A DNA stretch of 64,000 nucleotides, from positions 4,030,001 to 4,094,000 of the forward strand of contig NC_064681.1 in NCBI RefSeq assembly GCF_023278565.1, given 5' to 3'. The notes beneath the pieces were generated by a model, which ran no database searches, had not been told where the DNA came from, and saw only the letters and a list, made by a program, of their open reading frames with translations. This document shows positions 30,772-62,100 of the stretch, piece after piece. Both the position numbers and the translations under genes were made by a program. The stretch is from Colletotrichum lupini (taxonomy: Eukaryota > Ascomycota > Sordariomycetes > Glomerellales > Glomerellaceae). The stretch's first letter is position 1, and every line of letters begins with the position of its first letter.

Positions 30772-30976
30772 TATTAGTCTCCCTATTACAGGGTAGTTAG
30801 TTCGAACCGTAGTTAACGAAGAGATTAATTAAACTATATAAATATCTGCGTAGTAGGTATAAAAAGGAGGTTCTAACCGTAGGTTAGGCTAGCTATAATA
30901 ATCGTAAATAGGGCCCCTAATTAGCCCCTATATAGTTAGCTATATACTATAGTTAAATTAGACTTTTAATCTAATA
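30772..30976 (-). repeat. LTR of element A, 3' copy on the element's own strand
   Basis: 205 bp. It starts TATTAG where the unmutated family sequence has TGTTGG, and ends CTAATA for CCGACA. It is heavily RIP-mutated along its whole length, unlike its partner at 37987-38191. Confidence 0.9.
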
Positions 30977-33900
30977 CTAACTTTCTTTTTTTTTATTAAT
31001 TTAACCGCTATAATTAGAAATATAATTCGACCTCGGGCCCGTTTATTAAGTCGTTTCCTTTTCCCCCTTTTTTTTATTCTTTTTATATAACTTATCCCTC
31101 TATTTATATAATAACTTTTCCGCTACTTACGAATTATTTTAATCCCTTATTTAGTACTATTTTTATAAAAGCGTTTATAAGGTTGTTTTTATTATTAATC
31201 TAACGGATCTCGAGTATTTTATACCTTTTATACGATTACCTAAGGGCTATAATATCGATTATAAGCCTCTTTTCCTTTGTTATTCCTAATTTAACGAGGT
31301 ATTCGTATAGTAAGTAAGAATTAATATAAATAATTATTAAAATAGGTAAAAAGCTAATTCGATCGGTAATTTCTTTTAGCGTTATTAAAATTACGTAAGA
31401 GAGGTTAACGCCGTTAACTATACTATAAACTTCTAATATTAATATACTTCTCGTTACCCGCTTATTTTTAATTAACGAGTAGTAGATTATATTATTATAT
31501 ATAGTAAATTCGCTCTTATTTATACTCTCGTTAACTAGGATAATAATATACCCTAATTACGAAGTAAGGTCGTTATTATTCGTAAATAACCTATTAATAA
31601 AAACATAAAGCTTATTAATTATAAGGTTAATTGGGTAGTAAATAAGACTTCGATTAAGATTCGTTTATTACTACTTAAGCTACTTATTAAGTACCTCGAT
31701 ATCTTATTTAGTTAGATCTATAGCCTACGCTACTTTAGCGTAGTTAAAAGTTACCTTAAGCTAATAAATACTTATAATATATACCCCTCGCGCGAGCTTA
31801 GCCTTATATTACTTCTTAATATTAATTATATTTAGATCGATAAGGTTAATCTTCTTACCCTACCCCTTTTATTAAAAAACAACGGTTTCCCTTTCGATTA
31901 TAAAAATCCTACTATTAAATACTAAGGGGGTATTTATTATAAGGACCTTTTTTAGCTTTATTACAAAGCCCGCTTTTTAGAGCTCCTTATCCTCCTTTTT
32001 TATAAAGTTAATGTTAAATAGGCCTAATATATTATTAATCTATATTCTAATAATCCTAAATTAATTACCTTCGTACTCCGCGATTAATAAGCATAAGTCG
32101 TACGTAGAGGTAACTATTAATAGTTAATTAATATAAAAATCGTAATATATAGCCTATTAATAAGTACCCGATTCTATAAGCCTATATAATAGCTTAAGTA
32201 TTTTAATAATCGTACTTTCTAAGTACTTACTAGCTATTTCCTTCGGTAAATAGACTAGGAATTTTTTTATAAGCCCTATAGCCGATTAGGTATAGGCCTA
32301 AGTAATATTACGGCTCTAAATCTCGTATCCCTTTTTCCGTAGCGATATTATTAGTATTATTATTAATCGTTAGCTATAGCGCTATATAGTAAGCGATTAT
32401 ATAAGTAGCGTCGCCTTTTTAACATTACCGTACCCCTAAATTACGTATTTAGACTTCTTATATAGCTAGGGTATTCCTTTCCTTTTAATCTTACGAATTA
32501 TTTATAATTTAAATATATAGAGGTTTATATATTTTTTTAAGTTATATAAAATAAATCGATAGACCCCTCGATCGTAAAGAGTATTTACTTTAATAAGATT
32601 TAATCCCTTATACGGCTTTTTAGTAATTATAATTACGCCTTCTTTACGTAATTTAACTGCTAGCTCGAAATCGGCTTTCTTTTTTACTATATAAAAAGTA
32701 TTAATTACCTCGTTATTAGTAATAAATTACGGCGTTAGGGCTTACTATTATAGTTTTTTATAACGTTTTATTAGTAGTATTAGTACCCTTTTAATAATTT
32801 CCTTTTCCTCGTCGTTTATTAATACTACTACGACGATTTTATTAAGGATAATTTCCTATACCTCTACCGCAAGTTATATAGTTTCCCCTAGCTCTTCTTC
32901 TTTTTATAAATTAAAAATTACCTCGTTAAGATTTATATAATACGGTCTAACTACCGTAATTAATACTTTAAGTAGCTAGTTACGATCTCTCGTAACTATA
33001 TAAGAGCGCTCGTTAACAAAAATTAATTTATATAGCCTAGCCTATTATTAAGTAATTTCGCGCTATATTTATATATTTAAATTTAGTAATATATCCAGAT
33101 TACCCCCTATATTAAGCTTATTACGTATAATAATTACCTCGTTAACTTACTTTTTTATACTTACCTCGCGTAGTACTTATATTACTTTTTTAATTACTCG
33201 GGCTCGTTAGCTTATACTTAGCGACGGTAATAAGGCTAAGGTCGTTTTTAAATATACTCTAAATACTAATAGCGTTAGTATAAGTCCGTTAGGCCCTATA
33301 GTATCGTTATAGTATTTAAGTACTATTTAGAGGTATTCGTCGTTAATAGAATCTAGATTTTGCTTTTTAATAATTCTAAACGCCCTTTTTAATTACTAAT
33401 ATACCCTTTCTACTTTTCTAATACTATAGTGCGCTTTAATAAGTACGACTTTTAGCTATATACCGTAGGCCGTCGTATTATCCCTAAATTTTACTAACTT
33501 AAAGTCAGTATTAGTATCGGTTTTAATACTATTTAGCGGTCCTTAGTATATATTAATCTAGCTTTTTCGTAGGGCTACTTATATTATTTTTACTTATAAA
33601 TCCTAGAGGAATTACCTTATTTAGAAGGATATAGCTACGTTAATTATATATATTACTAACTAACTATTTAAATAAAAAATATCGACGACGATTTCTTAGT
33701 TAAAGTTAAGCTTATTACGTAATTTAAACTTAAATTTACGTAGGCTCTACGTATTTATTTAGTATTAATAATATACTTTTATTAACTACTCTAGCGCCCC
33801 TATTTCGATATTATTATTACTTAATTACTTTAGGAGGTTATATAGCTTCGTAACTAACGGGTACCTAAATCTCTAGTATAGTTTTTTAAGCTTACTTTCC

Positions 33901-36900
33901 GTTAGGTAATTAATTAACTTTATATTATTAGTAAGCTTTATAAACGCATACCCCCATTGTCGTTCGACTATTTTAAAATACTTATTACGAAAAATTCTAT
34001 TCCTCGTATTATTAAATATAATACCTAATTAATCTATATCTTTTAAATATAAGAGAAATAGGGTATTAATAGGTAAAATATAAAAAGTTATTATTCCGAA
34101 ATACGTCTCTATTTTTATTATACCTAGGGCGATAATTTCCTTACTTAAGCTAAAACTAATCCTCGTAATACCCGCTATTAATATATTAAGTATTACTAAC
34201 GCGATCTTTTATAGTACTTAGAATTACCCTTTTTTTTTAATTAACTATTATAATACCCTAATATTTAGAATAATCCTATAGAAATTATCTAAGCCGTACT
34301 TTTTACTTATATAGAGTACTTATACGAGCTTAGTATTCGAGGGATCTAGGTAGTATAAAAAGGACCCCTCTAGCTACCCCTAGATTTACTTAGTACTATA
34401 TTCTTTTTTTTTAAATATTAAAAAAAATAGCGTCTTTTCTTTAATCGTTAAGAGAATAGGCTTCGGCCCTATTAAATTTACCCTTTTAACTACTTCTATA
34501 TCTATTATCTAAGGGACCTTCTTTTATTATCTATAAATAAAAGCCTACTTATTAAGAGCTTTTACTACTTTCTATTCGTTTAGCTTCGTATATTTTCTAA
34601 AGGCTAATAGGGTAAAAAAAGAGTAGTTAATATCGTCGATTTTATTATAATTTAATTCGTTAATATAGGGGGTAAAATCTTTTTTATTTTCTAAATTTCT
34701 TATAGGGAGTATATACTTTAGGCCGCTACTTTAGCTACCGTCGCTAGGTTCCGTACTCCTAAATCTACCCTTATATATAATAAGGAATTAGTTAAACTAA
34801 CGAGAGCTAGTTTTACTATTTACTACCCTTAACTTTTTATACTTTTTATATAATTTAATACGCTCTTTTGTAAAATAGTTACTTAATTAATATCTATCCT
34901 TTTTATAAATATAATATTACCTCTTTTATTACCCTACTTATAAGTTAAACTTTTATTTATTTAATAAATCTAGGCCTCTTTACTAGCGAATACTATATCT
35001 AGCCTCTTTTTTTTTTATTATACGTTCGATTAACTTAATATTATTAATAAGGGCCGTTATATACTTAGAAGTAAGTTTAGTACGGTATTCTTATTTTAAT
35101 ATTAAAGCTAGATCTTAGCTTCGAGTAAAGCGTCTCGTAATCTTCGGGTACTTAATATAAAGTTATTTTTACCTCTAGTATATACTAGATTATAATATAA
35201 AGATATCTAACTTTTTACTTATTTATCCCCTTATTTAGCTAGGTTTTCGCTAGCTTATCGATTTAATTAATAAGCTCTTTAAAGATCTCTATTCGTAATT
35301 TACTTTTTATTATCTTAGTTATAAATATTAAAGAAATCGCTCGTAGCTTAGATAGGAGCTCTAGGTTCTTATTATAAGTCTCAAAGCGGCTTCGGATTGC
35401 GTTAATTATATTAAAAAAGTCGTTTCGATCGAAATTACGTACCGCTTCGTAATAATAATTAGAAGCTTTACTTACGAGTACGATATTAATTACTAAATAG
35501 TACTAGTATTCCCTAATTCTAACTTTTTTATAATAATTATAAAATATCGTTAGGGTTTTTTATAAAACCTTATACTTCCCCCTAGAATATAATTTCTTTT
35601 TTAAAAAGATCTTTTTAAGGTTTATAAATTACTTTATATTTATTATTAGATTTTCGGTATTTATATACGATCCTTACGTCGCTATATATTATTAATAACT
35701 TCGGGTTATTTACCTCTTTTCTTATTAACCGATCGGTACCGAATTTCGTATTAATAACGGTAATAAGTTATAGATCGAAATAGGTAGAATTATCGATTAT
35801 CGTACTTTTAGTACTATATTTTGCCCCGGTATATCCTTTTATAATAATAGATTTCCGTTAGTAATTATAGGGAGGAAATTTAGGTCGTTTACCCTTTTCT
35901 TAAATTCGTTAAAATAATTATACGCTCTATCGACTTATATCTAATTTTATAATACGAATTCCTCCTTTATAATTATTACTATTAGTATTTCGTATAGCTC
36001 TTATAATTATAATTATATTAGTAATACCCCTCGCCCGTAAAGGAATTTATTAACTACTTTTATAATTCCTAGGCTTACGCTCGCGAACTATTCGTTTAGT
36101 TAATAACTAAGGTCGTTTGCGATTTTATAAAATAGGGGTTACCCCTATAGCCCCTTTTTCTTATAGACCTTAGTTAAATAAATTAATACTACGTTAATTT
36201 ACTTACTATTAAGCTAATTTACGATTTTATATATCTACGTCCCCTAATAGTCTAGGTTAATATTTATTTACTTATAAAGGATTAGGATTCTATTTAAAAT
36301 CGGGTTTTGTCCTCTTTTTTTTTACCTTAACTTATTAAGGGTCGTGCTCTAGCTTATGCCTATATTAGTAATCGTTAGTATATTTAATTTTAATAGGGAT
36401 ATATTTAATCTGCGCGCTAGTTATAATAAATCCGTACTTTTACTACTTAACGAATTTATTAAGGTTTAAGAGATTCCCGCTTCCTCTTACTATCTCGCTA
36501 CTACTCTCGTTTTTATTATTTTTAATAATTACTATTACTTTTTTAAATCGCTAGCTATTATACTTACTAAGATCCTCCTTTTTATTTAGTATAAAAGGGT
36601 AAGTTTCAATAGTTCCTTTTTATAATAATAGTAATAGACGTTTATATTACTATAAAAAAATATAATAATTAACCTCGGGATCTTTATTAATTATTAATTT
36701 CCGCTATCCCGTATACTTCTAGCCTCTTAAGCCTCGTACTTTTTATAATTTTTAAATAACTTCTTTTTTTAACCTACTTTTATTAGGGTAGTATTTTATA
36801 AGAATAGTTAAAAGTAGATACTAGGCAGCTCATAAAGGAGCTATATAAGCTATTAAAAACCGTATAGGCCGTTAAGTATAGTTAATAAAGTTAAGCTTTT

Positions 36901-37986
36901 TCTTTTATAAAATCGTAGATTTTGAGGACTTATTAAAAATATTTACTTATTACTTATACGTAATAGGGTTAAATACTTTAAAAATCTTATTTTTTACGGC
37001 CTCTTAGTACCCTATTTTATATTTTTTAAATAGTCTTTTTTATAACTTAATTATAATTAAATAATTATTACTTACTAGCGATCCCTTTTATTACTTAATT
37101 AATTTTTTAAAATTAATAATCTCGTACTAGGAGCTAATATAAAAAAAAGCCCTTTATTAGCCCTTTAAAAAATTCTTTTTTTTTCCCCTTAGATCCTCGT
37201 TTTTTTAGCCTTTTCTTAAGCTAATAATAACTTAAATAGGAGGTTATAGGACTACTTTAGAGTAGCTACTTTTTTTTTAAGTTAATCTCCGAGATTTATA
37301 ATATTCTTAATTTAATATTATTAAAACTTCTAAATCCCCTCCTCCCTTATTAAACCGTCCTTTATATTATATTCTTAAGTAATACCCGGGGGGTAGTTAA
37401 GGGAGCTATAAAAAAGTCGTTTAAATTATAAGCTTAAGGTCGTATTTATAAAATCCTCGTAATAATAAACTTTTCTATATACTATAAATTTCTTAGCTTA
37501 ATAACTCCTATAGGGTTACTTTTATTACTAAATAAGAATGTTTATATTTAGAGATCCCCTTTTTTAATTACGTAATACTTTTTTTTACCGTATTATTAAG
37601 CTCGTTTATTATACTAATTAATTAAGTAAGTAGTCGTTATATAGGTATTTCTTTTTACTAATTTAACTAGTTAATTTCTAATTACGGGCTAGCTATAAAA
37701 AAGTCGTTTAGTAAAAAAGCTACTCGGGGCGATAATAAAAAACTAGTTATTTAAGTAATTCCGTTAATTAATATAGTTTAACGTAATAAACGTCGACCTC
37801 TCGTAAGTAATAAAGGGCTACGATTACTTAATTCTATACGGTATTTAAGAATCGCCTCCTTTTTCGTTTATTTTTATAAGGTTAATTAATATAAATTTCT
37901 TATTTTATATAGTATTAAAAAGTCGTCTCTTTTACGTAATAAGATACCTTACTAATCTATAATAGTAGAATTTAATTACTAATTAA

Positions 37987-38191
37987 TATTAATATCCTTA
38001 TTATAAAGTAGTTAGTTCGAACCGTAGTTAACGAAGAGATTAATTAAACTATATAAATATTTGCGTAGTAGGTGTAAAAAGGAGGTTCTAACCGTAGGTT
38101 AGGCTGGCTATAATAATCGTAAGTAGGGCCCCTAATTGGCCCCTGCGCAGTCGGCTGTATGCCGCGGTCGAATTGGACTTCCAATCCGACA
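37987..38191 (-). repeat. LTR of element A, 5' copy on the element's own strand
   Basis: 205 bp. The inner half is RIP-mutated, but the outer 80-100 bp (from about 38095 to 38191) keep CA and TG dinucleotides and end in an intact CCGACA. It adjoins the acyltransferase-bearing host DNA. Confidence 0.9.
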
Positions 38192-40495: not shown

Positions 40496-40501
40496 AAAAA
40501 A
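40496..40501 (-). terminator. Possible original Pol III terminator of the tRNA-Lys gene, now cut off
   Basis: Six A residues on the plus strand read TTTTTT on the reverse strand. If element B and one copy of its ATTTT duplication are removed, this run lies about 32 nt beyond the 3' end of the tRNA-Lys gene. No run of four or more T occurs between the tRNA and the element on the reverse strand. The role is inferred from position. Confidence 0.4.
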
Positions 40502-40511
40502 GAAGTATTTT

Positions 40512-40713
40512 TGTCGGATTGGAAGTCCAATTCGACCGCGGCGTATGGCCGACTGCGCAGGGGCCAATTAGGGGCCCTATTTACGATTATTATAGCTAGC
40601 CTAACCTACGGTTAGAACCTCCTTTTTATAACTACGCAGATATTTATATAGTTTAATTAATCTCTTCGTTAACTACGGTTCGAACTAACTACTTTATAAT
40701 AGGGATACTAATA
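40512..40713 (+). repeat. 5' LTR of element B
   Basis: 202 bp, TGTCGG...TACTAATA. The outer 50 bp (40512-40565) are unmutated; the inner part is RIP-mutated, including the terminal CCAACA, which now reads CTAATA. Confidence 0.92.
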
Positions 40714-43700
40714 CTAATTAGTAATTAAATTTTATTATTATAGATCGGTAAGGTATCTTACTATATAAAAGAAACGACCTCTTAATACCGTACGGGATAA
40801 GAGATTCGTACTAATTAACCTTATAAAAGTAGATAATAAAAAAAGCGATTCTTAAATACCGCACGGAATTAAGTAATCGTAGTCCTTTATTACTTACGAG
40901 AGGTCGATATTTATTACGTTAAACTATATTAATTAATAAAACTACTTAAATAACTAGCCTTTTACTATCGCCCCGAGTAGCTTTTTTACTAAACGACTTT
41001 TCTATAGCCGGCCCGTAATTAAAAATTAACTAGTTAAATTAGTAAAAGGAAATACTTATATAACGACTACCTACCTAATTAATTAGTATAACGAACGAAC
41101 TTAATAATACGGTATAAAAGAGCACTATGCGATTAAAAAAAGGGATTTCTAAACGTAAATATTCTTACTTAGTAACGAAGGTAACCCTTTAAAAGTTATT
41201 AAACTAAGAGATCTATAGTATATAGAAAAGTCTATTATTATAAGGATCTTATAGGTATAACTTTAAGCCCGTAATTTAAACGACTTCTTCATAGCTCCCT
41301 TAACTACCCCCCGGGTATTATTTAAAAATATAATATAGGGGACGGTTTAACGAGGGAAGAGGGGATTTAGAGGTCCTAATAGTATCGAGTTAAGAATATT
41401 ACGGATCTCGGAGATTAACTTAAGAAGAAAGCGGCTACCCTAAAGTAGTCTTACGACCTCTCGCTAGAGTTATTATTAGCCTAAGAAAAGGCTAAAAAGA
41501 TAAGGATCTAAGGAGAAAAGAAAAGACTCCTCTAGAGGGCCGTTTAAAGGCTTCTTTTTATACTAGCTCCCGGCGCGAGATTATTAATTTTAAGAAATTA
41601 ACTAAGTAATAGAAAGGATCGCTAGTAAGCGATAATTACCTAACCGTAATTAAGTTATAAAAAAGACTACCTAAAAAATATAAAATAAGGTACTAAGAGG
41701 CCGTAAAAAATAAAATCTCTAAAATATCTAACCCTACTGCGTATAAGTAATAAGTAAGCATTTTTAATAAGTCCTTAAAATTTACGATTTTATAAAAAAG
41801 AGGGCTTAACTTCGTTAACCGTACTTAACGGCCTATATAGTTCTTAATAGCCTATATAGCTCTTCTATAAGCCGCCCGGTATCTACTTTTAACTATTCTT
41901 ATAAAATACTACCCTAGAGGAGGTAGGTTAAAGAAAAAAGCTATTTAAAGATTATAAAAAGCATAAGGCTTAGGAGGCTAGAAGTATACGGGATAATAGA
42001 AATCGGTAACTAATAAAAATCCTAAGACTAATTACTATATCTTTTTATAGTAATATAAACGTCTACCGCTACTATTATAAAAAGGAACTACTAAAACCTA
42101 CCTTTTTATACTAAATAAAAAGGAGGATCTTACTAAGTATAATAGCTAATAATTTAAAAAAGTAATAATAATTACTAAAAATAATAAAAACGAGAGTAGT
42201 AGCGAGATAGTAAAAAGAAGTAGGAATCTCCTAAACCCTAATAAATTCGTTAAGTAGCAAAAGTACGGATTTATTATAACTAACGCGCGGATTAAATATA
42301 TCCTTATTAAGATTAAATACGCTAGCGATTACTAATACGAATATAAGCTAAAGTACGACCCTTAGCGAGTTAGGGTAAAAAAAAAGAGGATAAAACCCGA
42401 TCCTAAATAGAATCCTAATCCCTTATAAGTAAGTAAATATTAACCCGGACTATTAAGGGACGTAAATATATAAAATCGCAAATTAGCTTAATAATAAGTA
42501 AATTAACGCGGCATTAATTTATTTAACTAAAGTTTATAAAAAAAAGGGGCTATAGGGGCAACCCCTATTCTATAAGATTATAAACGACCTTAGTTACTAG
42601 CTAGATAAATAGTTCGCGAGCGCAAGCCTAAGAATCGTAAAAGTATTTAATAAATTCCTTTACGGGCGAGGGGTATTATTAGCGCAATTATAATCGTAAG
42701 AGCTATATAAAATACTAATAGCGATAATTATAGAGGAGGAATTCGTACTATAGAACTAGGTATAGGTTAATAGAGCGTATAATCGCTTTAACGAATTTAA
42801 AAAAAGGGTAAATAACTTAGATTTCCTCCCTATAATTACTAATAGAAATCTATCGTTATAAAAGGATATACCGGGGCAAAATATAATACTAAAAGTACGA
42901 TAATTAATAATTCTGCCTATTTCGATCTATAACTCGTTACTACTACTAACGCAAAATTTAGCACCGATCGGTTAATAAAAAAAGAGGTAAATAACTTAAA
43001 ATTACTAATAGTACGTAGCAACGCAAGGATCGTATATAAATACTAAAAATATAGTAGTAAATATAAGGTAATTTATAGACTTTAAAAAGATCTTTTTAAA
43101 AGAGAAATTATACTCTAGGGGGAAGTATAAGGTCTTATAAGAAACCCTAATAATATTTTACGATTACTATAAAAAAGTCGGAATTAGGGAGCATTAGTAC
43201 TATTTAGTAATTAATATTATACTCGCAAGTAAAGCCTTTAATTACTGCTACGAAGCGGTACGTAATCTCGATCGAAACGACTTTTTTAATATAATTAACG
43301 TAATCCGAAGCTGCTTCGAGACCTACGATAAGAATATAGAGCTCCTATTTAAACTACGAGCAATTTCTTTCGTATTTATAGCTAGGACAAGAGAGGGTAA
43401 ATTGCGAGTAAAAATCCTCGAAGAGCTTATTAATCGAATCGATAAGCTAGTAAAAACCTAGCTAAATAAGGGGATAAATAAGTAAAAAGTTAGATATTTT
43501 TATACCGCAATCTAGCGTATACTAAAGGCAAAAATAACCCTATACTAAGTACCTAAAAACTATAAAACGCTCTACTCAAGGCTAAGATCTAGCTTTAATA
43601 TTAAAGTAAAAATACCGTGCTAAACCCACCTCTAAGCATATAACGGCCCTTACTAGTAACATTAAGTCGATTAAACGTATAAAAAAAAAAAAAAAGAGGC

Positions 43701-46392
43701 TAAATACGGCAATCGCTAGTAAAGAGGCCTAGATTTATTAAATAAGTAGAAATTTAACTTACGGGCAGGGTAATAGAAAAGGCAATACTATATTTATAAA
43801 AAAGATAAATATTAGTTAAGTAACTACTCCGAAAAAGAGCGTACTAAATTATATAAATAATATAAAAAGTCAAGGGTAGTAAATAGCAAAACCAGCCCTC
43901 GTTAGTTTAACTAATTCTTTATTATATATAAAGGCAAATCTAGGGGCACAGAACCTAGCGACGGTAGCTAAAGTAGTAGCCTAAAGCATATAGCCCCTAT
44001 AAAAGATTTAAAAAATAAAAAAGATCTTACCCCCTATATTAACGAATTAAATTATAACGAAATCGATAGTATTAACTACTCTTTTTTCGCCCCGTTAGCC
44101 TTTAGAAAATATACGAGGCTAAATAAATAGAGGGTAGTAGAAGCTCTTAATAAGCAAGCTTTTATTTATAAATAGTAAGGGAAGGTCCCTTAGATAACGG
44201 ATATAGAGGCGCTTAAAAGGGCGAATTTAATAGGGCTAAAGCCTATTCTCTTAATAATTAAAGAGAAAACGCTATCTCTCTCGATATCTAAAAAGAAGGA
44301 ACATACTACTAAGCAAATCTAGGGGCAGCTAGAGGGGTCCTTTTTATACTACTTAGATCCCTCGAATACTAAGCTTATATAGGCATTCTATATAAATAAA
44401 AAGTACGGCCTAGATAATTTCTATAAAATTATCCTAAATACTAGGGTATTATAATAGTTAACTAGAAAAAAAGGGCAATTCTAGGCGCTATAAAAGATCG
44501 TACTAATAACGCTTAATACGTTAATAATAAGTATTACGAGGATTAGTTTCGGCCTAGGCAAGGAAATCGTTACCCTAAGTATAATAGAAATAAAAACGCA
44601 CTTTAGAACGATAACTTTCTATATTTTACCCGTTGATACCCCATTTCTCCTATATCTAAAAAACATAAATTAACTAGGCATTATATTCGATAATACGAAG
44701 AATAAAATCTCTAGCGATAAGCACTTTAAAATAGTCGAATAATAATAAGGGTATGCGTTTATAAAGCTTACTAATAACATAAAATTAATTAATTACCTAA
44801 TAAAAAATAAGCTTAAAAAACTATACTAGAGATTTAGGCACCCGTTAGTTACGAGGCTATATAACCTCCTCAAGCAATCGGGTAATAATAATATCGAAAT
44901 AGGAGCGCTAAAGTAGTTAATAAAAGTATATTACTAATACTAAATAAATACGTAGAGCCTACGCAGACTTAAATTTAAATTGCATAATAAGCTCAACTTC
45001 AATTAGGAAATCGTCATCGATATCTTCTACTTAAATAATCGGCTAGTACTATATATAATCGACGTAACTATATCCTTTTAAGTAGGGTAATTCCTCTAGG
45101 ATCTATAAGCAAAAATAGTATAAGTAGCCCTACGAAAAAGCTAGATCGATATATACTAAGGACCGCTAAATAGTATTAGAACCAACGCTAGTACTAGCTT
45201 TAAATCGGCAGAATTTAGGGATAATACGACAGCCTACGGTATATAGCTAAAAGTCGTACCCGTTAAAGCGCACCATAGTATTAAAAAAATAAAGAGGGCA
45301 TACTAGTAGTTAAAAAGGGCGTTTAGAATTATTAAAAAAGAAAATCCGGATTTTATTAATAACAAATACCTCTAAATAGTACTTAAATACTATAACAATA
45401 CTATAGGGCCTAACGGACTTATACTAACGCTATTAATATTTAAAGCATATTTAAAAACGACCTTAGCCTCGCTACTATTACTAAGTATAAGCTAACGAGC
45501 CTAAGTAATTAAAAAAGTAATACGGGCACTGCGCGAAGTAAGCATAAGAAAGCAAATTAATAAGGCAATTACTATGCGCAATAGGCCTAATATAAGGAAT
45601 AATCTAAATATACTACTAAATTCGGATATACGAGTATAGCGCGAAATTACCTAATAATAAGCTAGGCTATATAAGTTAATTTTCGTTAACGAGCGCTCTT
45701 ATATAGTTATAAGAGATCGTAACTAGCTACTCGAAGTATTAATTACGGTAGTTAAACCGTACTATATAAATCCTAACGAGGTAATTTCTAACTTATAAGA
45801 AAAAGAAAAGCCAGGGGAAACTATATAACCCGTAGCAAAGGCATAAGAAATTATCCTTAACAAAATCGTCGTAGTAATACTAATAAACGACGAAGAAAAG
45901 GAAATTACTAAAAGGGTACTAATACTACTAGCAAGACGTTATAAAAAACCACGATAGTAAGCCCTAACGTAGCAATTTATTAATAATAACGAGGTAATTA
46001 ATACCTTTTATATAGTAAAAGAGAAAGCCGATTTCGAGCTAATAGTTAAACTACGTAAAGAAGGTATAATTATAACTACTAAAAAGCCGTATAAGGGATT
46101 AGATCTTATTAAAGCAGATACTCTTCGTAATCGAGGGGTCTATTAATTTATCCTATACGACCTAAAAAAATATATAAACCTCCGCATATTTAAATTACGA
46201 ATAGTTCGTAAAATTAAAAAAAAAAGAATACCCCAGCCGTACGAAAAGTCTAAATACGTAATTTAGGAGTACGGTAACGTTAAAAAAGCAACGCTACTTA
46301 CATAATCGCCCACTATATAGCGCTATAACTAACGATTAATAATAATATTAATAGCATCGCTACGGAAAAAAGGATACGAGATTTAAAGCCGT

Positions 46393-47620
46393 AATATTAC
46401 CTAAGCCTATACCCAATCGGCCACAGGGCTCATAAGGAAAATCCTAGCCTATCTCCCGAAAGAAATAGTTAGTAAGTACTTAGAAAGTACGATTATTAAA
46501 GTACTTAAGCTACTATATAGGCTCGCAGAATCGGGTACCTATTAGTAGGCTATATACTATAATTTTTATATTAATTAATTATTAATAATTACCTCTATAT
46601 ATAACCCGTGCTTATTAGTCGTAGAGTACGAAGGTAACTAATTTATAATCGTTAGAATATAGACCGACGATACATTAGGCCTATTTAATATTAACTTTAT
46701 AAAAAAGGAGGATAAGGAGCTTTAAAAAGCGGGCTTCGTAGCGAAGCTAAAAGAGGTCTTTATAATAAACACCCCCCTAGTATTTAATAATAGGATTCTT
46801 ATAATTAAAGGGGAAACCGTCGTTTTTTAGTAAAAGGGGTAGGGTAAAAAGATTAACTTTATCGATCTAAACGTAACTAATATTAAAAAGTAGTATAAGG
46901 CTAAGCTCGCACGAGGGGTATATATTACGAGTATTTATTAGCCCGAGGTAACGTTTAACTATGCTAAAGTAGCGTAGGCTATAGATTTAACTAAACGAGA
47001 CGTTAAAGTATTTAATAAGCGGCTTAAGTAGTAGTAAATAAATCTCGATCGAGGTCTTGTTTACTACCCGATCGACCTTGCGACTAATAAGCTCTACGTT
47101 TTTATTAATAGGTTATTTATAAATAATAACGACCTTATTTTATAATTAGGGTATATTATTATCTTAGCTAACGAGAGTATAAGCGAGAGCGAATTTACTA
47201 TATATAGTAATATAATCTATTACTTATTAACTAAAAATAAGTAAGTAACGAGAAGTATACTAGCGTCGGAGGTCTATAGTATAATTAACGACGTTAACCT
47301 CTTTTACGCAATTTTAATAACGCTAAGGAAAATTACTAATCGAATTAACTTTCTATCTATTCTAACGGTTATTTATACCGATTCTTACTCGCTATATAAA
47401 TACCTTATTAAATTAGGAACGACGAAGGAAAAGAGGCTTATAATCGATATTATAGCCCTTAAGTAATCGTATAAAAGGCACGAGATACTTAAGATCCGTT
47501 AAATTAATAATAAAAATAACCTCGTAAACGCTTTTATAAAAGTAGTACTAAATAAAGGATTAGAGTAATTCGTAAGTAATAGAAAAGTTACTATACAAAT
47601 AAAAAGATAAGTTATATAAA
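46393..47620 (+). pseudogene. Reverse transcriptase and RNase H remnant of copia element B
   Basis: Reading across stops in the RIP-mutated DNA shows the C-terminal reverse-transcriptase fragment (46393-46573) and the RNase H domain (about 47040-47620), with family motifs TRSILASEVY, TDSYSLYKYL and RLIIDI. Stops arise where CAA, CAG or TGG codons would be expected, as RIP produces. No functional protein is encoded. Confidence 0.85.
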
Positions 47621-47726
47621 AAGAGTAAAGAAAAGGGGGAAAAAGAAACGACTTAGTAAACGGGCCTGAGATTAGATTATACCTCTAACCGTAGTAGTTA
47701 AATTAATAAAAAAAAAAGAAAGTTAG

Positions 47727-47928
47727 TATTAGATTAGAAGTCTAATTTAACCGCGGCGTACGGCTAACTACGCAGGGGCTAATTAGGCGCCCTATTTACG
47801 ATTATTATAGCTAGCCTAACCTATAGTTAGAACCTCCTTTTTACAACTACGCAGATATTCATATAGTTCAATTAATCTCTTCGTCAACTACGGTTCGAAC
47901 CAACTACCCTATAATAGGGATACCAACA
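47727..47928 (+). repeat. 3' LTR of element B
   Basis: 202 bp. The start is mutated (TATTAG for TGTCGG), while the last 80 bp toward the tRNA-Lys gene are essentially unmutated and end in TACCAACA. Confidence 0.92.
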
Positions 47929-47955
47929 ATTTTAGTCAATCGCTGACGGGAATTG

Positions 47956-48085
47956 AGCCCGACGTGGCTATGAGATGTTAGACATTGAACCTAAATCAGT
48001 TCCTAGGTGTCGAGATAGACTTACGGGTCGAACCCACAACCTTGAGATTAAGAGTCTCACGCTCTACCGATTGAGCTAGCCGGGC
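47956..48085 (-). tRNA. tRNA-Lys(CUU) interrupted in the T-stem by a spliceosomal-type intron
   Basis: Reverse-strand gene. Exon 1 (48085-48025) gives nucleotides 1-61: acceptor strand GCCCGGC, D-stem GCTC/GAGC, anticodon stem TGAGA/TCTCA with loop CTCTTAA (anticodon CTT at 48052-48050), no intron at 37/38, and T-arm GTGGG-TTCGACC-C. Then 57 nt (48024-47968) begin GTAAGT, contain TCTAAC ten bases before their end and finish CATAG. Exon 2 (47967-47956) supplies CCAC, GTCGGGC and discriminator T. Exact removal gives a 73-nt tRNA with five perfect T-stem pairs (GTGGG/CCCAC) and seven acceptor pairs (one G-U). Box A (TAGCTCAATCGG) and box B (GGTTCGACCC) are intact; the intron starts just after box B. 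No T-run follows within the 27 bases to the element B duplication. CCA is not encoded, as is normal for a nuclear gene. Confidence 0.85.
47968..48024 (-). other. 57-nt GT-AG intron-like insertion inside the tRNA-Lys gene
   Basis: On the reverse strand the insertion has the perfect 5' splice site GTAAGT, a fungal branch-site match (TCTAAC) and a TAG 3' splice site. Its length of 57 nt lies in the range of the protein-gene introns in this window (about 49-155 nt, most 50-65). It does not resemble a tRNA-endonuclease intron: it lies in the T-stem and not at 37/38, and no bulge-helix-bulge is evident. It also contains GGTTCAATGT, close to a second box B. Confidence 0.75.
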
Positions 48086-51560: not shown

Positions 51561-53159
51561 ATTATAAGCCTAGCTTTTAATTAAGACTTTATATTATAAT
51601 AACGTACTTATTAATACGATTTTTATAATCTTTTTAAAATAATTAACTTATTTATACTTACTTTAGCCTAAGCTAAATTAATAAGTTATAATAGTTAAAT
51701 TAAATAATTTAACGTATTTTATATTATAAATAAGGGCGTTAGGGTTTAAAAATACGTTAATTTAAATACTCTAAATTCTAACGTATTCTTTAACCCCTCT
51801 ATAATACTTATTTTACTTTTAAAATTCGGACGATTAGTTATAACTTATAATAAAAAAGAACTACGAGCTTATTAAGCCTATTATAAAGCGTTTAAAAACG
51901 ACTAAAAAAACTAAAAGATCCTTTATTAATAATTTCTAAATATAATTCTTAATACGAACTTTTTAACTTCTTTAAATATAAATAACTTATAAAACTAAGC
52001 TAGGTTTCTTTTTATAAAGCTAGTTATATTACTTACTTTACGTAAATAAATCTATTTTTATACTATATTTATAAAAAGGATTTATATATTTAAAAGTATT
52101 TAAAAATAATAAGAGCTCGACGCTAAATATAAATAACTTATAGCTTATAAACGTAATATTATTAATATATATATTAAAGTCCTCGCTTAGTAACTAATAA
52201 AATTAGTTAATATTATATTATATAAATACGTATTTTAAAAAGTTATTAAGAACGGCGCTAAGTTTAGTATATAGTAAATCATTAAATATTTAAAATAGGA
52301 ATTTATACCCTCTAAATTAGTAATAAAGAATATAGTTCGAAAGGAATATTAATAAGCTTTTAATAAAGCAAGGACCGGAATTAACTCTTAACGTTAATAT
52401 AAAGAGTAATAATTTACTTATTTCTAAGCTAAAACGTATAATATTTTAGAAATTAGTAAAGAGATTATTATACTTAACTTTTTAATTATAATTAAGTCTA
52501 GACTTAACCTTATATAGGGCTAACGTATATATAAGACTTTTAGTAAATTAATAGTTTTTAAAACGTATATAAGAACCCTCGAGGAGATTACGTATATATT
52601 TAGCTTAGTAACTTAGGATATATATACTAAATAATTTTTAAATTAAGGAGGGACTTATTCTACTTTTATTAAACGCTCTAACTTAGTTAATAATATAAAT
52701 AATAAGGGTAACGTTATATACCTTTATAATTACGTATACCTATAGCGCCCTATAATATATTAAAAATTAAAATAAGTACTTATAAGCTAAAACGCTAATA
52801 AGTTATTAATACGAATACTAAGGAGCTATATAAAGGAAGTCCTTATTATTATTAAATTAAGTAAATAAAAATTACTTTATAATAAGCTTAAAAAAGCTAG
52901 TTAGCTAAAGAATAATAAAACCCCTAAGAAACCTAGGTTTTTAAAAAGATTTTTTAATTAATTTATAGCGAGCTTATTAATAAACTAGGACGAGGGCTAT
53001 ATAGTTATTATATTTATAAAGAGTTAAGACTTAGAAATAAACGCAATTCTTAGTACTTCTATAAGTAATACTTACCCCCTTTTTTAAAATATAGTAATAA
53101 ATAGTTATAAAATAATATATTTAGTTAATAATAAGAGCCTATTTAAACTTAAGAGTTAT

Positions 53160-56100
53160 ATATTATTAAGTAATAAAAACTATATTAAATTAGGAATTAC
53201 CATATTACTTATTATTATATATAATACTTATATTATAAAAGGCGTCTTAAATAGACTTAAGGAAAAGAGAACTTATAATTTAGAGCTTTAGAACGTTACT
53301 TATATTAAGGGATTTTATATTAATATAGTTTTAAAAACTTTATTAAATAAAAGCGCACTCTAATACTACGGTCTAGATTATACTTTATAATAAAGAACGC
53401 TTTATAAGAATATTATTAAAAAGTAGCTTATTTAAAAGAATAATTTAGTTTTTTTTAAATATAAGCTCTTTTAATCCTATCCTTTTTCTATAAACCTTAA
53501 ACGTATCCTATAAAGCTTAGTTAATATTATATTACTAATTAGCTATAGAAAATTCTATTACTTATATTAATATACTTATAAAAGGTCTAATAACGCGCTC
53601 TTTTAATACTTTAAAATAAGTTATTTCGGACCTAATGCTCTTCGTTAATTACTATATAAGACTCGAGGTATATATATTAAACCTCTATCATAAATTAAGT
53701 ATAAAGTATATATATTATTTAATATTAAAACGGTAGTCTTAAGAGGACTACCCTTAAAAAGAGCCTTATAGTTATAATACTATATATATTAAAATCTTTT
53801 TTATTTCGAACTATTTTTTAATAAACGATAATATATATTTATAGCTTTTAATAAATATAATAAATAGCTTAGGGGGTTCTTTTTAAAAATTAAAATAGAG
53901 GAGGAAGTACTTTTTATATTATAGAGCCTCGAAATAACGATTCGTTATTAAAAAAGGACTCTAATCTACTTTTTTTAAAATAATAATAAAACCACTCTCT
54001 TAATTATAAATATTAAACGCGTATATAAAACGTAATATAATAAGCTAAGAATTAGAATAGAACTTCTATTTCTATATATAAAAGAACCCGTAAATAATAC
54101 TAAAAAAATAAGTTAACTCGTAATTACTAAAGCTTATAAAATATGACTTTTTATAAACCTCCTTACGAATTTATAAAACGAAATAGTATTAGTAGTAATT
54201 TTTATTTATAATATTACCTTACGAGAGATTAATAAAAAAGATTTGCTTATTATAATAAAAATTAACTAATAAAAGCGGTATTAATATTAATAATAAACGG
54301 GTTACTAAGTACGGGATTTTAAACCGGTTATTTTATATCTCGGTAACCTTTATATATATAGTTACTAAATATACCCTTTTTATAAAGATTATAAGAGGGG
54401 TATATGTTAAAAAGAGTTTAAAATACTTCTTTATAAGTATATTAAATACTTAGTTAGATATATACTAAAAATATATAACTTATATAAGGTTTAAGTACTT
54501 ATACTTAAGTAAGTATTTATTATAAAGAATATTAAGTTTAATAAAAAAGTCTTTTATAATTTTATATATAAAGAATAAGCTATTATAAGCGAGTAAGTAA
54601 ATTTAATAATTTAAAAAATATAAGAACTCTTTAATACTAATAATAAGTTAGTTCGAGTACTTAGGAAAGTAAATTTAGACTTTAAAAATACTAATACTTA
54701 AGATAATTCTATAATCAAAAATAGTATTATTATTAAATTTTTAACTATTTAGGACGCTAAGTAACTAATAAACGTACTTTAGGGTATAATAAATAAGGTT
54801 AAAAAGGCTAATATAATCTTATTATTATTATTAATTTCTAAAATAACCCCTTTATATAAGCTTAGGGATAGGGGTAAGAAAAAGGATATAATAACTAAAT
54901 TATAAATAGCTTTACGTAGTTTATAATCCTTTTTGTAAGTATTTATATATATTATAGAGGTTCTCGAGCTTTTAATTCTTAATAACTCTTAGTAAAATAC
55001 TAAAGTACGTAATAAACAAGGTACTAATTATAAAAAGATAATTCTTAATACTAAAATTAATATTAATAAAGAACTCTTATAATAAACCTCTATTATTATA
55101 TAAGAATAGAGCTTATAAAAACTGCCTTATTAAGTACTAAGTAAAACTTTATTAAGTCTTAAATATTTAAACCGGGCACGTAAACCTCTATAACGCTTTA
55201 ATAATAATATTTTTATAACACTCTTATATTTAAATATAAAGAACGGTAATTATTATAACTATTTTTAAAACTACTTTTTCTTTACTTCTATACTTAATTA
55301 ATAAAAAGTTATAAAAGAAAGTAGTATAAAATATATAATACTTTATTAAGTAATAAAAAGAATAGTTTATAAAACCTATTTAGAGCGCTCTAGAGGAGTT
55401 TAAAAACTATAACTTATTAAAATTAACTTTTAAAGCTTATTAAAAAAGTTTAGTAATATTAAATATCTCTTATTATAACTATAAAAGCTACTTAAAAACA
55501 TTATAAATATAAAAATAAAAAAGCTAAGGGATACTAATATATAAGAAGAGGTCGATTATAATCCTAAATAAAAGATCTTATTTTTACTAAAATAAGTATA
55601 TACTTATAAATATAATATTAATAACGAAGTTAATAAAATAAAAGTATATATATATATATAAGGGGAGATATATAACTACTTAACCCCTTATAAAATACGT
55701 ACGCTTTAATACTTATTACAAAGGCCTTTAAGCTTATAATAATAATAGCTACCTAATTCGACCTTAAAATAAACTAATATAATATTATTAACGCATTCCT
55801 TAACGCGCTTTTTAAAAATAATAAGCTAGTAATTATTAAATTTTTAAAAAGATATAAGGTTATTAATAAAATAAATAAGCTCTAACGCGCTCTATATAGC
55901 CTCCGAGACTTACTAATTCTTTAGTTCTAAACTTTTATTTCTATACTTCGTAATATAAATATAATACATAGCTACGAGGAGATTTATATTTACTAAACCG
56001 TAAATAAAAAAGTAATATTAGTATTTTATATCAATAATTTTATTATTTTATATTATTAAGATAATTAAAAAGTAGCTTAGGGGATCGTTAATAATATAAA

Positions 56101-56480
56101 AGAATATATTAACTTTAAAGAAAATAGACTAATTAATTACTTTTTTAGAGTACGGATTTTATAAAACCGTACTATTTATAAAGTTTATTTTATTTACGAC
56201 GTATTCATTAAGCGAGTTACTAAGCGCTTCGACTTTATAAATTTATTATATTTAGCTACCCCTCTTCTTTAAAAAAAGTTTAAACTAAATAAGGGTTAAG
56301 TAATAAAAAAAGAAATAAAGAGCTACTAAGAAAAAGTCGGGAGTATACTTTATATAGCTATTATAATTAAACTAAATATTACTTTTATTTACTTATAATT
56401 ATTACGGTTCTTAACTAACCTAAGCATAACTTATATTAAAATAATTAATTATTATATTTAATATCTTTATATAACGAGAT
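53160..56480 (+). pseudogene. Pol remnant of copia element C
   Basis: Scattered polyprotein fragments are readable on the plus strand through many stops: the GAG-pre-integrase region near 53160-53470 and the end of the reverse transcriptase near 56310-56480. The integrase and RT core between them cannot be followed confidently by eye. Nothing is translatable. Confidence 0.7.
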
Positions 56481-58819
56481 ATTTTACGCTTTATTACAAT
56501 AATATATTAAGTACGTAATTATTATTTCTAGTTAGAGATACTAACTTCATAAATAATAAGGTAATACGACGATTATTTTAAAAATATATAATATTCCTTT
56601 TTAACGGCCTAATTTAATAAAAATTAGTATACTAAGTAACGGTTATAATATTAATTACTAAAACTAAGCTTTTTTATTTTAAAAAAACCATAAAAAAAAC
56701 TATAGTTCTAAAGCGCTTTTTTAAAAATATTACTTTTAACTTAGGAAAAGTATAGTTAGTTAACTACGATAATTAGTAAATAATTCGACTTATTATAAAA
56801 AAAGAAATAACTACTTAACTTTACTATATCGATATATAAAATATATAACTAAAATAAGAATGCGCTAAAAATAGTTTCGAAATTACTTATATATTAATAA
56901 AAAATATATTAATAAATAGACTTATTAAAAACTTTTTATAAGTTAAGTTCGAATATTTCTATATACTTCTTAACTTTTATAATACGTAAAAAGCTATTAT
57001 AAATAGCTGAAATAGTTAAAAATAATTAATTTAAGCTATACTTAAAAAAACTTAATACTTAAAAGTAAATAATAAATAGAACTTAGAGTACGGCCTAGAG
57101 GCTTAAAATAAATAAAATAAAAACTTTTTATAACCTAAAAGCCTAAATTCTTAAAATAACCTTATTTCGTAAGGTATATATATATAAAAATAAGACTTAA
57201 GCTTATACTTATTATTTAAATTCTTAATTTATAAAGTACGTAATTACTAAAAGTATAGCGTTACTAAAGAAGAGAGTTAATATACGTACTAAGAAACGCG
57301 TTTTATATACTTCGAAGTTTATAAAACTAAGAGTAGTAGGGGTAATAAGGGGTATAAGAGTTAGAACGATTATTAAATTAATAACTTAGAGTATAAAAGC
57401 GGGTAATATAATAAGAAGTTAGTTATAAATAATTATAATAAGTATAAAAGAGGACCGGGGGTATATATTAAAAAAGTCCTTTATATAAAAGCTAATATAG
57501 TTCTTATATGTTTTCTAATTATTATATATTTAATAAATAATACTACGGAGCTTAATAATATTTTATTAAAACTATAATTAGAAGTACGCTTTTTAATAAT
57601 AATAATAAAAAATATTTATAAAAAAGGGAGCGCTATTTATAATAGCCTCGGTAAGGGCCTAGGTTATTAGCTATAGAATAACTAATATATTAATATACTC
57701 TTTAACTAAACGGCTATTAAGATAGCGCGTATATTAACTACTACTTTTTATAAAATAATAATTATTATTTTTAAAATTAATATATTAAAAAGCTATTTTA
57801 AAATAAAATAAGTATTAAATTTCCCGTTCTTTAAGAACCTCTTTCTTAAGCTTTTTTAAAGACTAAGTATATATTAAATAGGCCTAGAATAATAAAAAGA
57901 ACTATATTTATTATAAAAAGTACTTTAGCTTCTTAGTATTCTTTTTTACTTTTTATTACTTTTTTAAAAAGAGCTAGCTTTATATTTTTTAAACCTTAAA
58001 ATAATATTAAATATAAATTCCTAAAATAATAAGTATATAATATACCCTTTTTAAAAAGCTTATTATTTAAACTAGTTTTATTTTTATTTTTAAATTCTAA
58101 AGGGGGGATAAGTAAAAGCTTATTAAAGCTCTTATTATTATTATTTACCTTATTATTACTTTTATTATCGTTATTAAAGAGAGCCTCGAACTTAATAAAG
58201 TCCTTAGTATTTTAATTAATAATTTTAATATCTTCTTAGCTAGAAAGAAAGAGCTTAATAACCGGGCTTTAATAAATAAATAAGAGGTTATAAGGGGGAA
58301 TAATAATTTAAAAGGGCTCGTTGATATTATTACTTATTTAAACTCTTAATAAACTATATAATATATATAAAAAAAGTATTTTAAAAATTACGTAAAGCTT
58401 ATTATTATTTTTAGATATATTAAATATTTATATTTAAAATAAAATAAGTAAACGATTTAATAACGTAAGTACGCGCGTATAATAAATAGGGGTACTTATA
58501 ATAACTATAAGAAATTAAAAAGAAAAAGAAAAATAATAGCTAAGTAATACTATAAGAATTTAAATATACGTAAAGTAATTAAGTAGCTTTACTCTTAGTA
58601 ATTTATATATTAAAAATAATAGAATATACGCTATTCTAAGTTAAGATTCTATTTATTTTAAATAAAAGGATATATTTATAATAAACGCGGTTTAAAAAAC
58701 GCATATCCCTTATACTTATTTTTTATTTATTTATATTTAACTAAATTAGGCCTTTATAAAGGTATTTAAAGATTTTATTTTAAATATAATAGCTCCCTAG
58801 TAATAGTAATTATGGGGTA

Positions 58820-58996
58820 TATTACGTAATAGGGATAGTAATTATACTTTATAAAGTGCCCGTTACGTACTAAATTACGTGTTTATTTTAGATATCGTAT
58901 ATATAAACCTTTTCTTTTTATCTATTTTTACTTTAATAGTTAAGCTACTTTTATTATACTCCGTATGCCCATTGCTACGTGCTATAACTCGTAATA
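58820..58996 (+). repeat. 3' LTR of element C
   Basis: 177 bp, TATTACG...CGTAATA, RIP-mutated but less so in its outer 60 bp, where TGCCCATTGC is kept. Confidence 0.92.
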
Positions 58997-59001
58997 ATAT
59001 C

Positions 59002-59165
59002 TGTACTTAGAAGCTTCGTTATGTTAATCGTTATCCGTATTAATAACTTAGGGGCAAGCTCGTGGCGTTTTCTTACTTTTTGCTGTGTTTAAGCACCTAG
59101 TAACGCTCGCGGCACTATAATAAGGTGGCACGTAATATAGGAGGCATCTATATAGCCCCCGGGAG
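59002..59165. other. Short host segment between elements C and D
   Basis: About 160 bp with normal CA/TG content and no gene, trapped between two RIP-mutated elements. Confidence 0.5.
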
Positions 59166-59173
59166 ATCCTGCA

Positions 59174-62100
59174 CAGCGCTTATATCTATATAAACAAATT
59201 AAATATAAGGTTCGTATTTAATTATTTAGCTCATTTCTCGCGCTATATTTAATTATTTAATAATTAATTAATAAATTTAACTGATTTCCTAATTAGGAAT
59301 TAAATAAAGCTATTGCGAAAGTCTTTATAATACTAATTTATAAACTTTACCTCGATTAGCTTTTTTAATTAAAAAATTAACCTCTTATTTTTATAATACC
59401 GCTACGAAGCTAGTTCTTAAAATATTAGACCTTTTTTAGTATAAAGGATCTTATTAATAATTATTATAAAGTTAAAGTTAACTTCGCGAGGCTAAATATC
59501 CTCTTATAATCTATCGCTATCGTAGGGATCGTAAAGATATTAAGTATAAGCTTACTTAACGTTAAATAAGTTAGTTAATAATTAATCTACTATTAAACTA
59601 AGTTAAGGACCGGCTAAGGGATAATTTATAAATAATATTAATTAAGCTTAAGTACGTAGTTAATTACTACGTTTATTATTTAAAATATTAACTATTATTA
59701 ATACTACGAGTCTTTTATAATACTTTTTAGAATTATAAAAGTATTAAAAGTAGTTTATAACTATCGTAGCGAAGGAGGAGGACTTAGATAACGAGGAAGA
59801 GGAGGACTTACTATCTTATTTATATACTATTTTTATTAATAATTATAAAGTCCCTTTTTTATATTAAATAGCTAATAGCTTTACTCGGGTATATCTTACC
59901 TCTTTTTTAACTATTTTAATCCTTACTTAAAGTAAAAAATAATTATTATAACGTAGAGCGGAGAGTTACCTAACTTAATATAATACTTATTAAGGACTTA
60001 CTAAGTATTAATAACTAATAATTAGAAATATCCTCGCGAGTTAAAATCATTATTAAAAAGTAGCTCTACCCGCTCCCTAAGTATATATTTAAACTAAATA
60101 TAACGAGGGATATTATTTAAAATTAGAGGTTAAGAAAGAGGTTAAGATATAAATTAATAACGAGCTAATTACTAACAAAATAATATTATTTATATTAATT
60201 ACGATTATAACGCTACGATTTAAGAAACCGTAAGATCTATTTTTTTTTTAAAAAGTTTATTATATAACTTCTTTTATTCTTTAAAATAGTTAATAAGGTA
60301 CTCGAGACTTATTATTACTTTTTATAAATAGCTATAACCGTCTCTTTTACCCTAGCCTTAGTATTTTATTATTTAGAAGTAAAGTAGTTTAAATACTACT
60401 TTTAGCTCGGTTAGTAATTACTAATTATTATTATTAAAAACGTCCTTAATAAGGATTTATTATTTTAAATTTTTATAAGCTCGACTAGTTATTAAAAAGG
60501 TATAAATCTACTTTTTCTTTTATAAAGAGCGTTATATTATAAAGTATATCAAATTCTATTTTATATTATTATTAAGCGTTAGTATAAGCTCTTATAACGA
60601 CTTTTTAAAAAGAGTAAATATATCGTTCTCATCGGTTTTATTACTAACTTCGAGGAAGGCCTTATATTATTAAAATAATGAGTAAATAAATTTAATAACG
60701 TTCTAAAACTTATTAATAGGGCCCCTTATACGCTAGAAGTTAAGATCTTTTTAAAGTTACTTAGTATTAATTAATATATTTAATTCTTATTTAAATACCT
60801 CTTTATTATTATTAAATAAAAAGGCCTTATTAATAAGGTTAAAAATATAACCGTAGTACCTTATTTTTTAATTAAGAATATCTTCTTAAGTATAGGTATA
60901 AAATAATATAGGATAAAAGTAACCTAAGTAAGTATTATTATTTAAGGTATTATTATAAATAACTACTCCGACTTAATTACTTAATTCCTAGTTATTTATT
61001 ACCGATTTTATAGTTTAGGTAATATCAGCCCTATTATAAGTACTATACTATTATCGTAAAGTAATAAAGTATTATATTTATTACTTAGTATAGTTTAGAA
61101 AGTAAATAAAAACGGCAATAATAATATTTTACGTTAGTAAGGTTTATAAATTAAATAATAAGTAAACTTTCGTTATTAACCTCCGGATCTCTATTCTAAT
61201 TATATCTTTTTTTTTAATAAAGATCTTACTTAGTTCCTTTTTTATATTTCTATATAATAATAAGAGTTTATTAATAATACTATAATTTAACTAATAAAGG
61301 AGGGCCCGGAAATAAGGATTATAAAAAGTTATAAATAGGCTATTATTATTAATAATATACTTAATTACTAATTCCTTAATTCTTATTACTTAGCTCTTTA
61401 TAATAATACTAGAGGTAAGTTTCTGTCTTTTTAGTATTAAGTCGTATTTAAAAGATTTTAATAAATATAATAACTTACTAAAGCTTAGATCTATTACTTA
61501 ATATTTTAACTTTAAATAAGCCGTTACTAAGCTCGTAGCTATTATTTTAAAATAAGTAACGATACTTATTTCGTTATAGTAATAATAAAACTAAAAGACT
61601 TTATTTTAAATATTTTTATTATAGATCTTTTAAATAAAGACCCCCTCTAAGCGGATCTATAACTTCCTTAGCCTTATACCTTTTTATAATATTAAATTAT
61701 TATTAACAAAAGTCCTTCCTTTTTAAATTACTTTTAAAAAGGCGAGGAGGCTATTATAATTATTAAGATCGGTTAATAATACGAGGCTAGTATTAATTAA
61801 AGTTTATAATTACGAAATAATCCGAAATAGTAGCTACGTACCGAAAATCGTATAACTTATTACTAATTAATTAATTATAATATAGTAAATTAATTAATAT
61901 ATAATTTAATTAATATTAATAATAATTATAATAGTTATAAAGGGTTAGAAATAGTAATACGTAACTTCGTTAGTTTTATTAATATTAAAAAAAGGGGGTA
62001 TTAGAGGTTTTTTAAATTCTTAAATATAATAGGATACTAAATTTAGGGCTCTATAATACTTAGGCTTTTTTTTTTTTTTTAGTAATTATTAATAATCTAT

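Follow-up and report, generated by a model that had tools for sequence, protein, structure and literature searches.

What removes an insert of 57 nt from the T-stem of a nuclear lysine tRNA, and does a gene carrying such an insert still make a tRNA? The question is raised by a tRNA-Lys(CUU) gene on the minus strand of the window (the whole 64,000-nt stretch of Colletotrichum lupini DNA that was analysed), which runs from 48085 to 47956 and is interrupted between nucleotides 61 and 62. Exon 1 (48025..48085, minus strand) holds nucleotides 1-61, i.e. 61 nt including the anticodon CTT. The mRNA-type intron (47968..48024, minus strand) begins with the 5' splice site GTAAGT, contains TCTAAC, with a branch-site-like CTAAC 9 nt before its end, and finishes with CATAG. 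Exon 2 (47956..47967, minus strand) supplies nucleotides 62-72, that is, the 3' part of the T-stem and the 3' strand of the acceptor stem, followed by the discriminator T73. The cut between exons and intron cannot slide, because exon 1 ends with C, the intron starts and ends with G, and exon 2 starts with C. In its minimum-energy fold the joined 73-mer forms seven acceptor pairs and five T-stem pairs. The precise insert that an earlier note had described in this tRNA-Lys(CUU) gene is thereby confirmed to the base, the joined exons being called tRNA-Lys(ctt) by ARAGORN. The Rfam tRNA model, when applied to the window copy, covers model positions 8-63 only, at 48023-48078, with 43.2 bits.

Ten genes interrupted at one site

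A dihydrodipicolinate synthetase-like protein encoded in the window is 99% identical to C. scovillei and 94% to C. orchidophilum, over 91% of the query, and the organism is thus most likely a member or near relative of the Colletotrichum acutatum complex. A query of 241 nt around the window gene was searched against the same genome (63.4 Mb, 12 contigs) and gave 27 matches: the window gene itself, nine that extend through the exon, the intron region and the trailer, ten that end exactly at nucleotide 61, and seven on the neighbouring repeat only. All 20 tRNA-containing loci (L009-L028) were retrieved and read. Half of these tRNA-Lys(CUU) genes (10 out of 20), at dispersed loci, are interrupted, every one of them at the 61/62 junction. 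The ten interrupted copies agree in the whole of exon 1 and in T73, and nine of them agree in nucleotides 62-72; the exception, L016, has one change in this segment, which breaks a T-stem pair. ARAGORN recognizes tRNA-Lys(ctt) in the joined exons of all ten copies and calls none of them from the unspliced DNA. The other ten genes are without intron and mutually identical over 72 nt. They represent a different isodecoder, with the acceptor stem GCCTTGC/GTGAGGC, as against GCCCGGC in the interrupted one, and with one different T-stem pair; no uninterrupted copy of the GCCCGGC isodecoder occurs among the 27 genome matches. The earlier note had reckoned that many uninterrupted tRNA-Lys(CUU) genes elsewhere would help to reduce the interrupted one to a pseudogene: ten such genes do exist, but all of them belong to the other isodecoder.

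The ten introns measure 53, 55, 55, 56, 57, 57, 59, 59, 63 and 69 nt. All begin with GTAAG, the next base being T in four and C in six, and each contains exactly one CT[A/G]AC (CTAAC in eight, CTGAC in two), located 9 nt from the intron end in nine cases and 10 nt in the remaining one; the chance of finding this motif at one fixed place is about 0.003 per intron. The 3' ends read CAG in seven introns and TAG in three. Information content, examined over the first 14 and the last 22 positions, amounts to 2 bits at each of the first five positions and to 0.15-1.03 bits at the next nine, and rises again to 1.28-1.53 bits in the branch motif and to 1.12-2 bits at the last four positions. The interiors have a mean pairwise identity of 0.50, compared with 0.476 after shuffling; for the 60 nt upstream of the genes the value is 0.545. 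An interruption at one site in ten dispersed genes, with unrelated interiors and the same splice signals, is far beyond chance, and all ten introns probably descend from a single insertion that predates the copying of the family; reverse splicing, named in the earlier note, is one possible route of that insertion.

Intact exons and signals beside unrelated interiors are, to judge from the sequences, the mark of selection for spliceosomal removal, and we infer that the copies have evolved apart for a long time while purifying selection acted on the exons and the splice signals. Were gene conversion at work on the exons alone, it would hardly spare an intervening intron of 57 nt, nor would it keep the signals within the intron. 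A BLAST comparison among the flanks and introns of the ten copies returned three pairs at E 0.01 or better, namely intron stretches of 20 nt (L011/L012) and 14 nt (L016/L017), plus one LTR-like remnant; the two short intron stretches suggest that some copies may be younger than others. The same comparison found no segmental duplicates within ∼300 nt on each side of the copies.

Transcription signals and the copy in the window

Exon 1 contains what we take, by eye, to be the A box and the B box minus its last base. Because the intron sits directly behind the B box, the promoter and its spacing are untouched. Nine of the ten interrupted copies, the window copy being the exception, have five or more T in a row, the run starting 28-36 nt past nucleotide 72, and by eye there are CAAC-like motifs upstream that resemble Pol III start sites. 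Taken together, the internal boxes kept in exon 1, the T-runs and the CAAC-like motifs make transcription of the interrupted genes by Pol III likely. The Pol II transcript that the earlier note had envisaged finds nothing in its favour, the T-runs of the nine copies lying where they would be expected for Pol III. TTTT is absent from all ten introns, but this is not significant when compared to shuffled sequences (P 0.196), and a depletion of internal Pol III stops is therefore unsupported.

Behind the tRNA, the first ∼20 bases of the 3' trailer (CAATTCCCGTC[A/C]GCGATTGA; 47934..47955, minus strand, in the window) are conserved in the alignment of the ten copies. Mean pairwise identity after nucleotide 72 is 0.94 over the first 23 nt (another count gives 0.97 for the first 22 nt) and 0.49 from 36 to 80 nt. 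A relation of the trailer to the intron was considered and rejected, since the intronless isodecoder also has a conserved trailer. By eye, the trailers of both tRNA-Lys(CUU) families can pair with their own 3' acceptor strand (GTGAGG-ctcaaat-CCTCAC and CGGG-ctcaatt-CCCG) and contain CGATTG, complementary to CAATCG of the D-loop; in eight of the ten intronless copies, also by eye, CGGGT ahead of the T-run offers a further partner to the leader (ACCC with G1). These pairings point, tentatively, to a precursor with a structure that has nothing to do with the intron. Among other tRNA genes of the genome, the four tRNA-Asn(GUU) genes examined (L053, L056-L058) have a common trailer stretch, CAGTGGTT...TCC, ahead of a T-run that is located at 32-43 nt. 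The seven tRNA-Met genes have short trailers, T4 being reached at 4-12 nt, which resemble one another less than those of tRNA-Asn(GUU) do (0.587 and 0.698, respectively).

The missing T-run of the window copy can be traced to an AT-rich LTR retrotransposon of ∼7.4 kb at 40512..47928 (LTR1 at about 40512-40713, LTR2 ending at 47928). It is delimited by a 216-nt direct repeat, the copies of which are 7215 nt apart and 86% alike, and by a 5-bp target-site duplication, ATTTT, at 40507..40511 on the left and 47929..47933 on the right. Its terminal kilobase, searched against the genome, gave 40 matches, its own locus among them, from 40 scored of 1503 candidates. The element inserted 27 nt beyond nucleotide 73 and has the tRNA trailer on one side; on the other, now beyond the element, lies a T6 run (40496..40501, minus strand, A6 on the plus strand), presumably the original Pol III terminator. 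With the element taken out, the distance to the start of this run would be 32 nt from nucleotide 73, or 33 nt from nucleotide 72, to be compared with 28-36 nt in all nine siblings on the latter count. From this sibling-like distance it follows that the window copy was once a complete gene and that the element arrived later. The copy now has no nearby terminator, T4 or longer not being reached until ∼238 nt past the tRNA, and may be impaired through the insertion.

A first explanation to be weighed, compatible with spliceosomal removal in the family as a whole, is therefore that the window copy alone is dying: the retrotransposon took its terminator, and it would yield no proper tRNA although the family makes one. 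The ATTTT on both sides of the element, the T6 displaced beyond it and the T5 or longer run kept by every sibling speak for this; on the other hand, the exons, splice signals and trailer of the copy are intact, and Pol III may stop later, the 3' end then being trimmed. We regard the matter as evenly balanced. The idea of a dead copy, put forward in the earlier note, thus possibly holds in part for this one gene, and fails for the family, with its conserved exons and signals.

A 65-nt LTR-like stretch, 84.6% alike, is present in the upstream flank of another interrupted copy (L017), and targeting of Pol III genes by the element is possible. The window also includes long blocks of very low GC (0.20-0.36) between its gene-bearing stretches, at 30001-38000 and 52001-62000, which we take to be the pattern left by repeat-induced point mutation.

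Removal of the insert: alternatives and other introns of the genome

Canonical nuclear tRNA introns, at 37/38 and processed by TSEN and Trl1, are likewise introns in a nuclear pre-tRNA, but the present case differs from them by its site, its spliceosomal signals and its lack of anticodon-intron geometry. Anticodon-loop introns are found in this fungus as well: interrupted genes of three other isotypes all have their break in the anticodon loop, where it is canonical. For Val(AAC) there are 27 pieces, four of which are whole genes and one a 71% match, and the junction between pieces is mostly at tRNA nucleotides 37/38; for a Lys(TTT) and an Arg(CCT) gene ARAGORN predicts anticodon-loop introns of 13 and 16 nt. 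Further T-arm introns may exist, because the isotypes examined were these three more and the Rfam tRNA scan of the genome scored 63 of 2262 candidates. Fourteen low-scoring 78-nt tRNA-like matches (18.7-38.3 bits), of which the four that were read (L073-L076) are AT-rich, have the look of a tRNA-derived repeat in decay.

The presence of anticodon-loop introns at least makes the tRNA endonuclease available as an agent of removal, and there is a precedent for its action in the T-arm. Such an intron is reported for tRNA-Ile(UAU) of Cyanidioschyzon merolae (PMC9602550), and a 2014 review credits the endonuclease of this organism with introns of this kind, bulge-helix-bulge (BHB) motifs seeming to be its critical determinants (PMC4090602). 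The same review gives the inserts of the Guillardia theta nucleomorph as 3-24 nt long (PMC4090602). The genes described here resemble those of C. merolae and of nucleomorphs in that a eukaryotic tRNA gene is interrupted in its T-arm, but they have GT, branch and AG signals and no BHB: a central helix between intron nt 2-5 and exon 2 nt 2-5 cannot form in any of the ten, in any register tried, shifted ones included. What is conserved is GTAAG, CT[A/G]AC and AG, not a structure, and the interrupted genes of the other three isotypes keep to the anticodon loop. With a site at 61/62 instead of 37/38 and no BHB in ten cases out of ten, removal by TSEN was rejected, and we would be greatly surprised to see it reinstated.

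Could the insert be retained, the interrupted genes yielding a functional, tRNA-like non-coding RNA? The conserved trailer behind the tRNA would be in keeping with this, as would the folding of unspliced precursors, where the acceptor stem closes around the intron in all three examples folded (3 of the 10 copies). When folded four bases short, the unspliced precursor does not exceed shuffled sequences in stability. Spliced precursors with leader and trailer fold as a cloverleaf in two of three cases, the one from the window failing to do so at minimum energy. A retained insert, however, should be constrained in its interior, and the absence of any constraint beyond the splice signals led us to reject this explanation; moreover, the trailer is conserved in the intronless isodecoder too and hence not tied to the insert, and an exact restoration of the tRNA in ten copies out of ten would be pointless. 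We attach next to no credence to it.

The ten copies could, alternatively, be pseudogenes or a tRNA-Lys-derived SINE that spread together with its insert. One architecture in ten dispersed copies would suit such an origin, and the 2014 review states that D- or T-arm insertions of eukaryotes mostly affect one of many synonymous genes and, except in nucleomorphs and C. merolae, are supposed to mark pseudogenes (PMC4090602). But a family of this kind is expected to decay evenly, whereas here the exons and splice signals are intact beside unrelated introns and flanks, and the copies show neither segmental duplication over ∼300 nt per side nor more than the three BLAST pairs mentioned above. As the copies are not decayed along their whole length, this origin was rejected and is, in our opinion, extremely improbable. 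Self-splicing introns were dismissed, 53-69 nt being far too short for them.

Removal by the spliceosome, on the other hand, can be set beside known cases. Fungal U6 snRNA and U3 snoRNA genes can likewise have a short GT-AG intron with a branch site in a small structured RNA, the host RNA being an snRNA or snoRNA there and a tRNA here. U6 is itself transcribed by Pol III. Two U6 genes were found in this genome (L059 and L060; 2 matches, 47 scored of 3763 candidates), and both carry introns, of 60 and 63 nt, of the form GTAAG[T/C]...CACT[A/G]AC...CACAG, and thus the tRNA-Lys introns and those of both U6 genes have the same 5', branch-like and 3' signals. Within the two U6 introns there is also a B-box-like stretch (GGTTCGAATC, AGTTCGAGTC), a possible intronic promoter element. 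No intron-sized insertion was found in three U3 matches out of three (by match length, with an alignment for one), in the single SRP RNA match or in 47 of 47 5S rRNA matches (both by match length; 47 scored of 3107 candidates for 5S rRNA). Among protein genes, a predicted intron of an amidase gene in the window (18397-18453) has 57 nt and reads GTAAGT...ACTAAC...TAG; the search that gave it admitted only candidates with common splice motifs and returned 1 for 7 ORF pairs. Without a motif filter, intron candidates of 55-106 nt were obtained for three of four exon pairs of the actin family, with the 5' ends GTTCGT, GTCAGT, GTATGT or GTTGAC. Exact-pattern scans of viral and prokaryotic contig collections gave 0 matches, which is uninformative for a fungus. 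The proposal that a nuclear tRNA-Lys(CUU) gene contains a spliceosome-type intron, made in the earlier note for one gene, is strongly supported now that ten genes have the same site and signals.

A proposed route to the mature tRNA and its meaning

It is very probable, on the sequence evidence assembled here from one genome, that ten genes of one tRNA-Lys(CUU) isodecoder carry a spliceosomal intron at 61/62 which is removed by the spliceosome. On the other side of the balance stand the T-stem pair broken in L016, the lost terminator of the window copy and the failure of its spliced precursor to fold as a cloverleaf, the unremarkable stability of the unspliced precursor, the insignificance of the missing TTTT, and the different 5' ends of the actin-family candidates. 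Pol III would most likely transcribe the interrupted genes from their internal boxes. The spliceosome would then use GTAAG[T/C], CT[A/G]AC and AG to excise 53-69 nt from the primary transcript, and the U6 introns of the same genome are presumably removed likewise. The joined RNA would adopt the normal tRNA fold and be finished by RNase P, RNase Z and CCA addition.

Half of the tRNA-Lys(CUU) genes detected (10 out of 20) would, if so, depend on the spliceosome, and we think it likely that they provide the first known case of mRNA-like splicing in nuclear tRNAs. Our literature search, in which subscription papers were thinly covered, turned up nothing on nuclear tRNA genes with spliceosomal introns, so that an earlier report is possible. 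Three sources name no such intron in the text that is available (PMC3978253, PMC11782384 and the tRNAscan-SE 2.0 paper, PMC8450103). According to a 2017 paper, U3 and U6 were at that time the only small structured RNAs for which frequent interruption by an intron was known (PMC5832005), and a 2026 review presents the splicing of tRNAs as a system apart from the spliceosome (PMC13149111). Since ARAGORN finds none of the ten genes in unspliced form, similar genes may be overlooked elsewhere.

A family of ten genes makes a stronger case than a single odd gene would. It also offers a natural test of the entry of introns into Pol III genes, the site just behind the B box being one that keeps the promoter intact. 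If the proposed explanation is true, a tRNA precursor, probably a Pol III product, can be a substrate of the spliceosome and still end up as a functional tRNA. How much of this lysine tRNA is supplied would then be coupled to the activity of the spliceosome and be sensitive to the splicing capacity of the cell.
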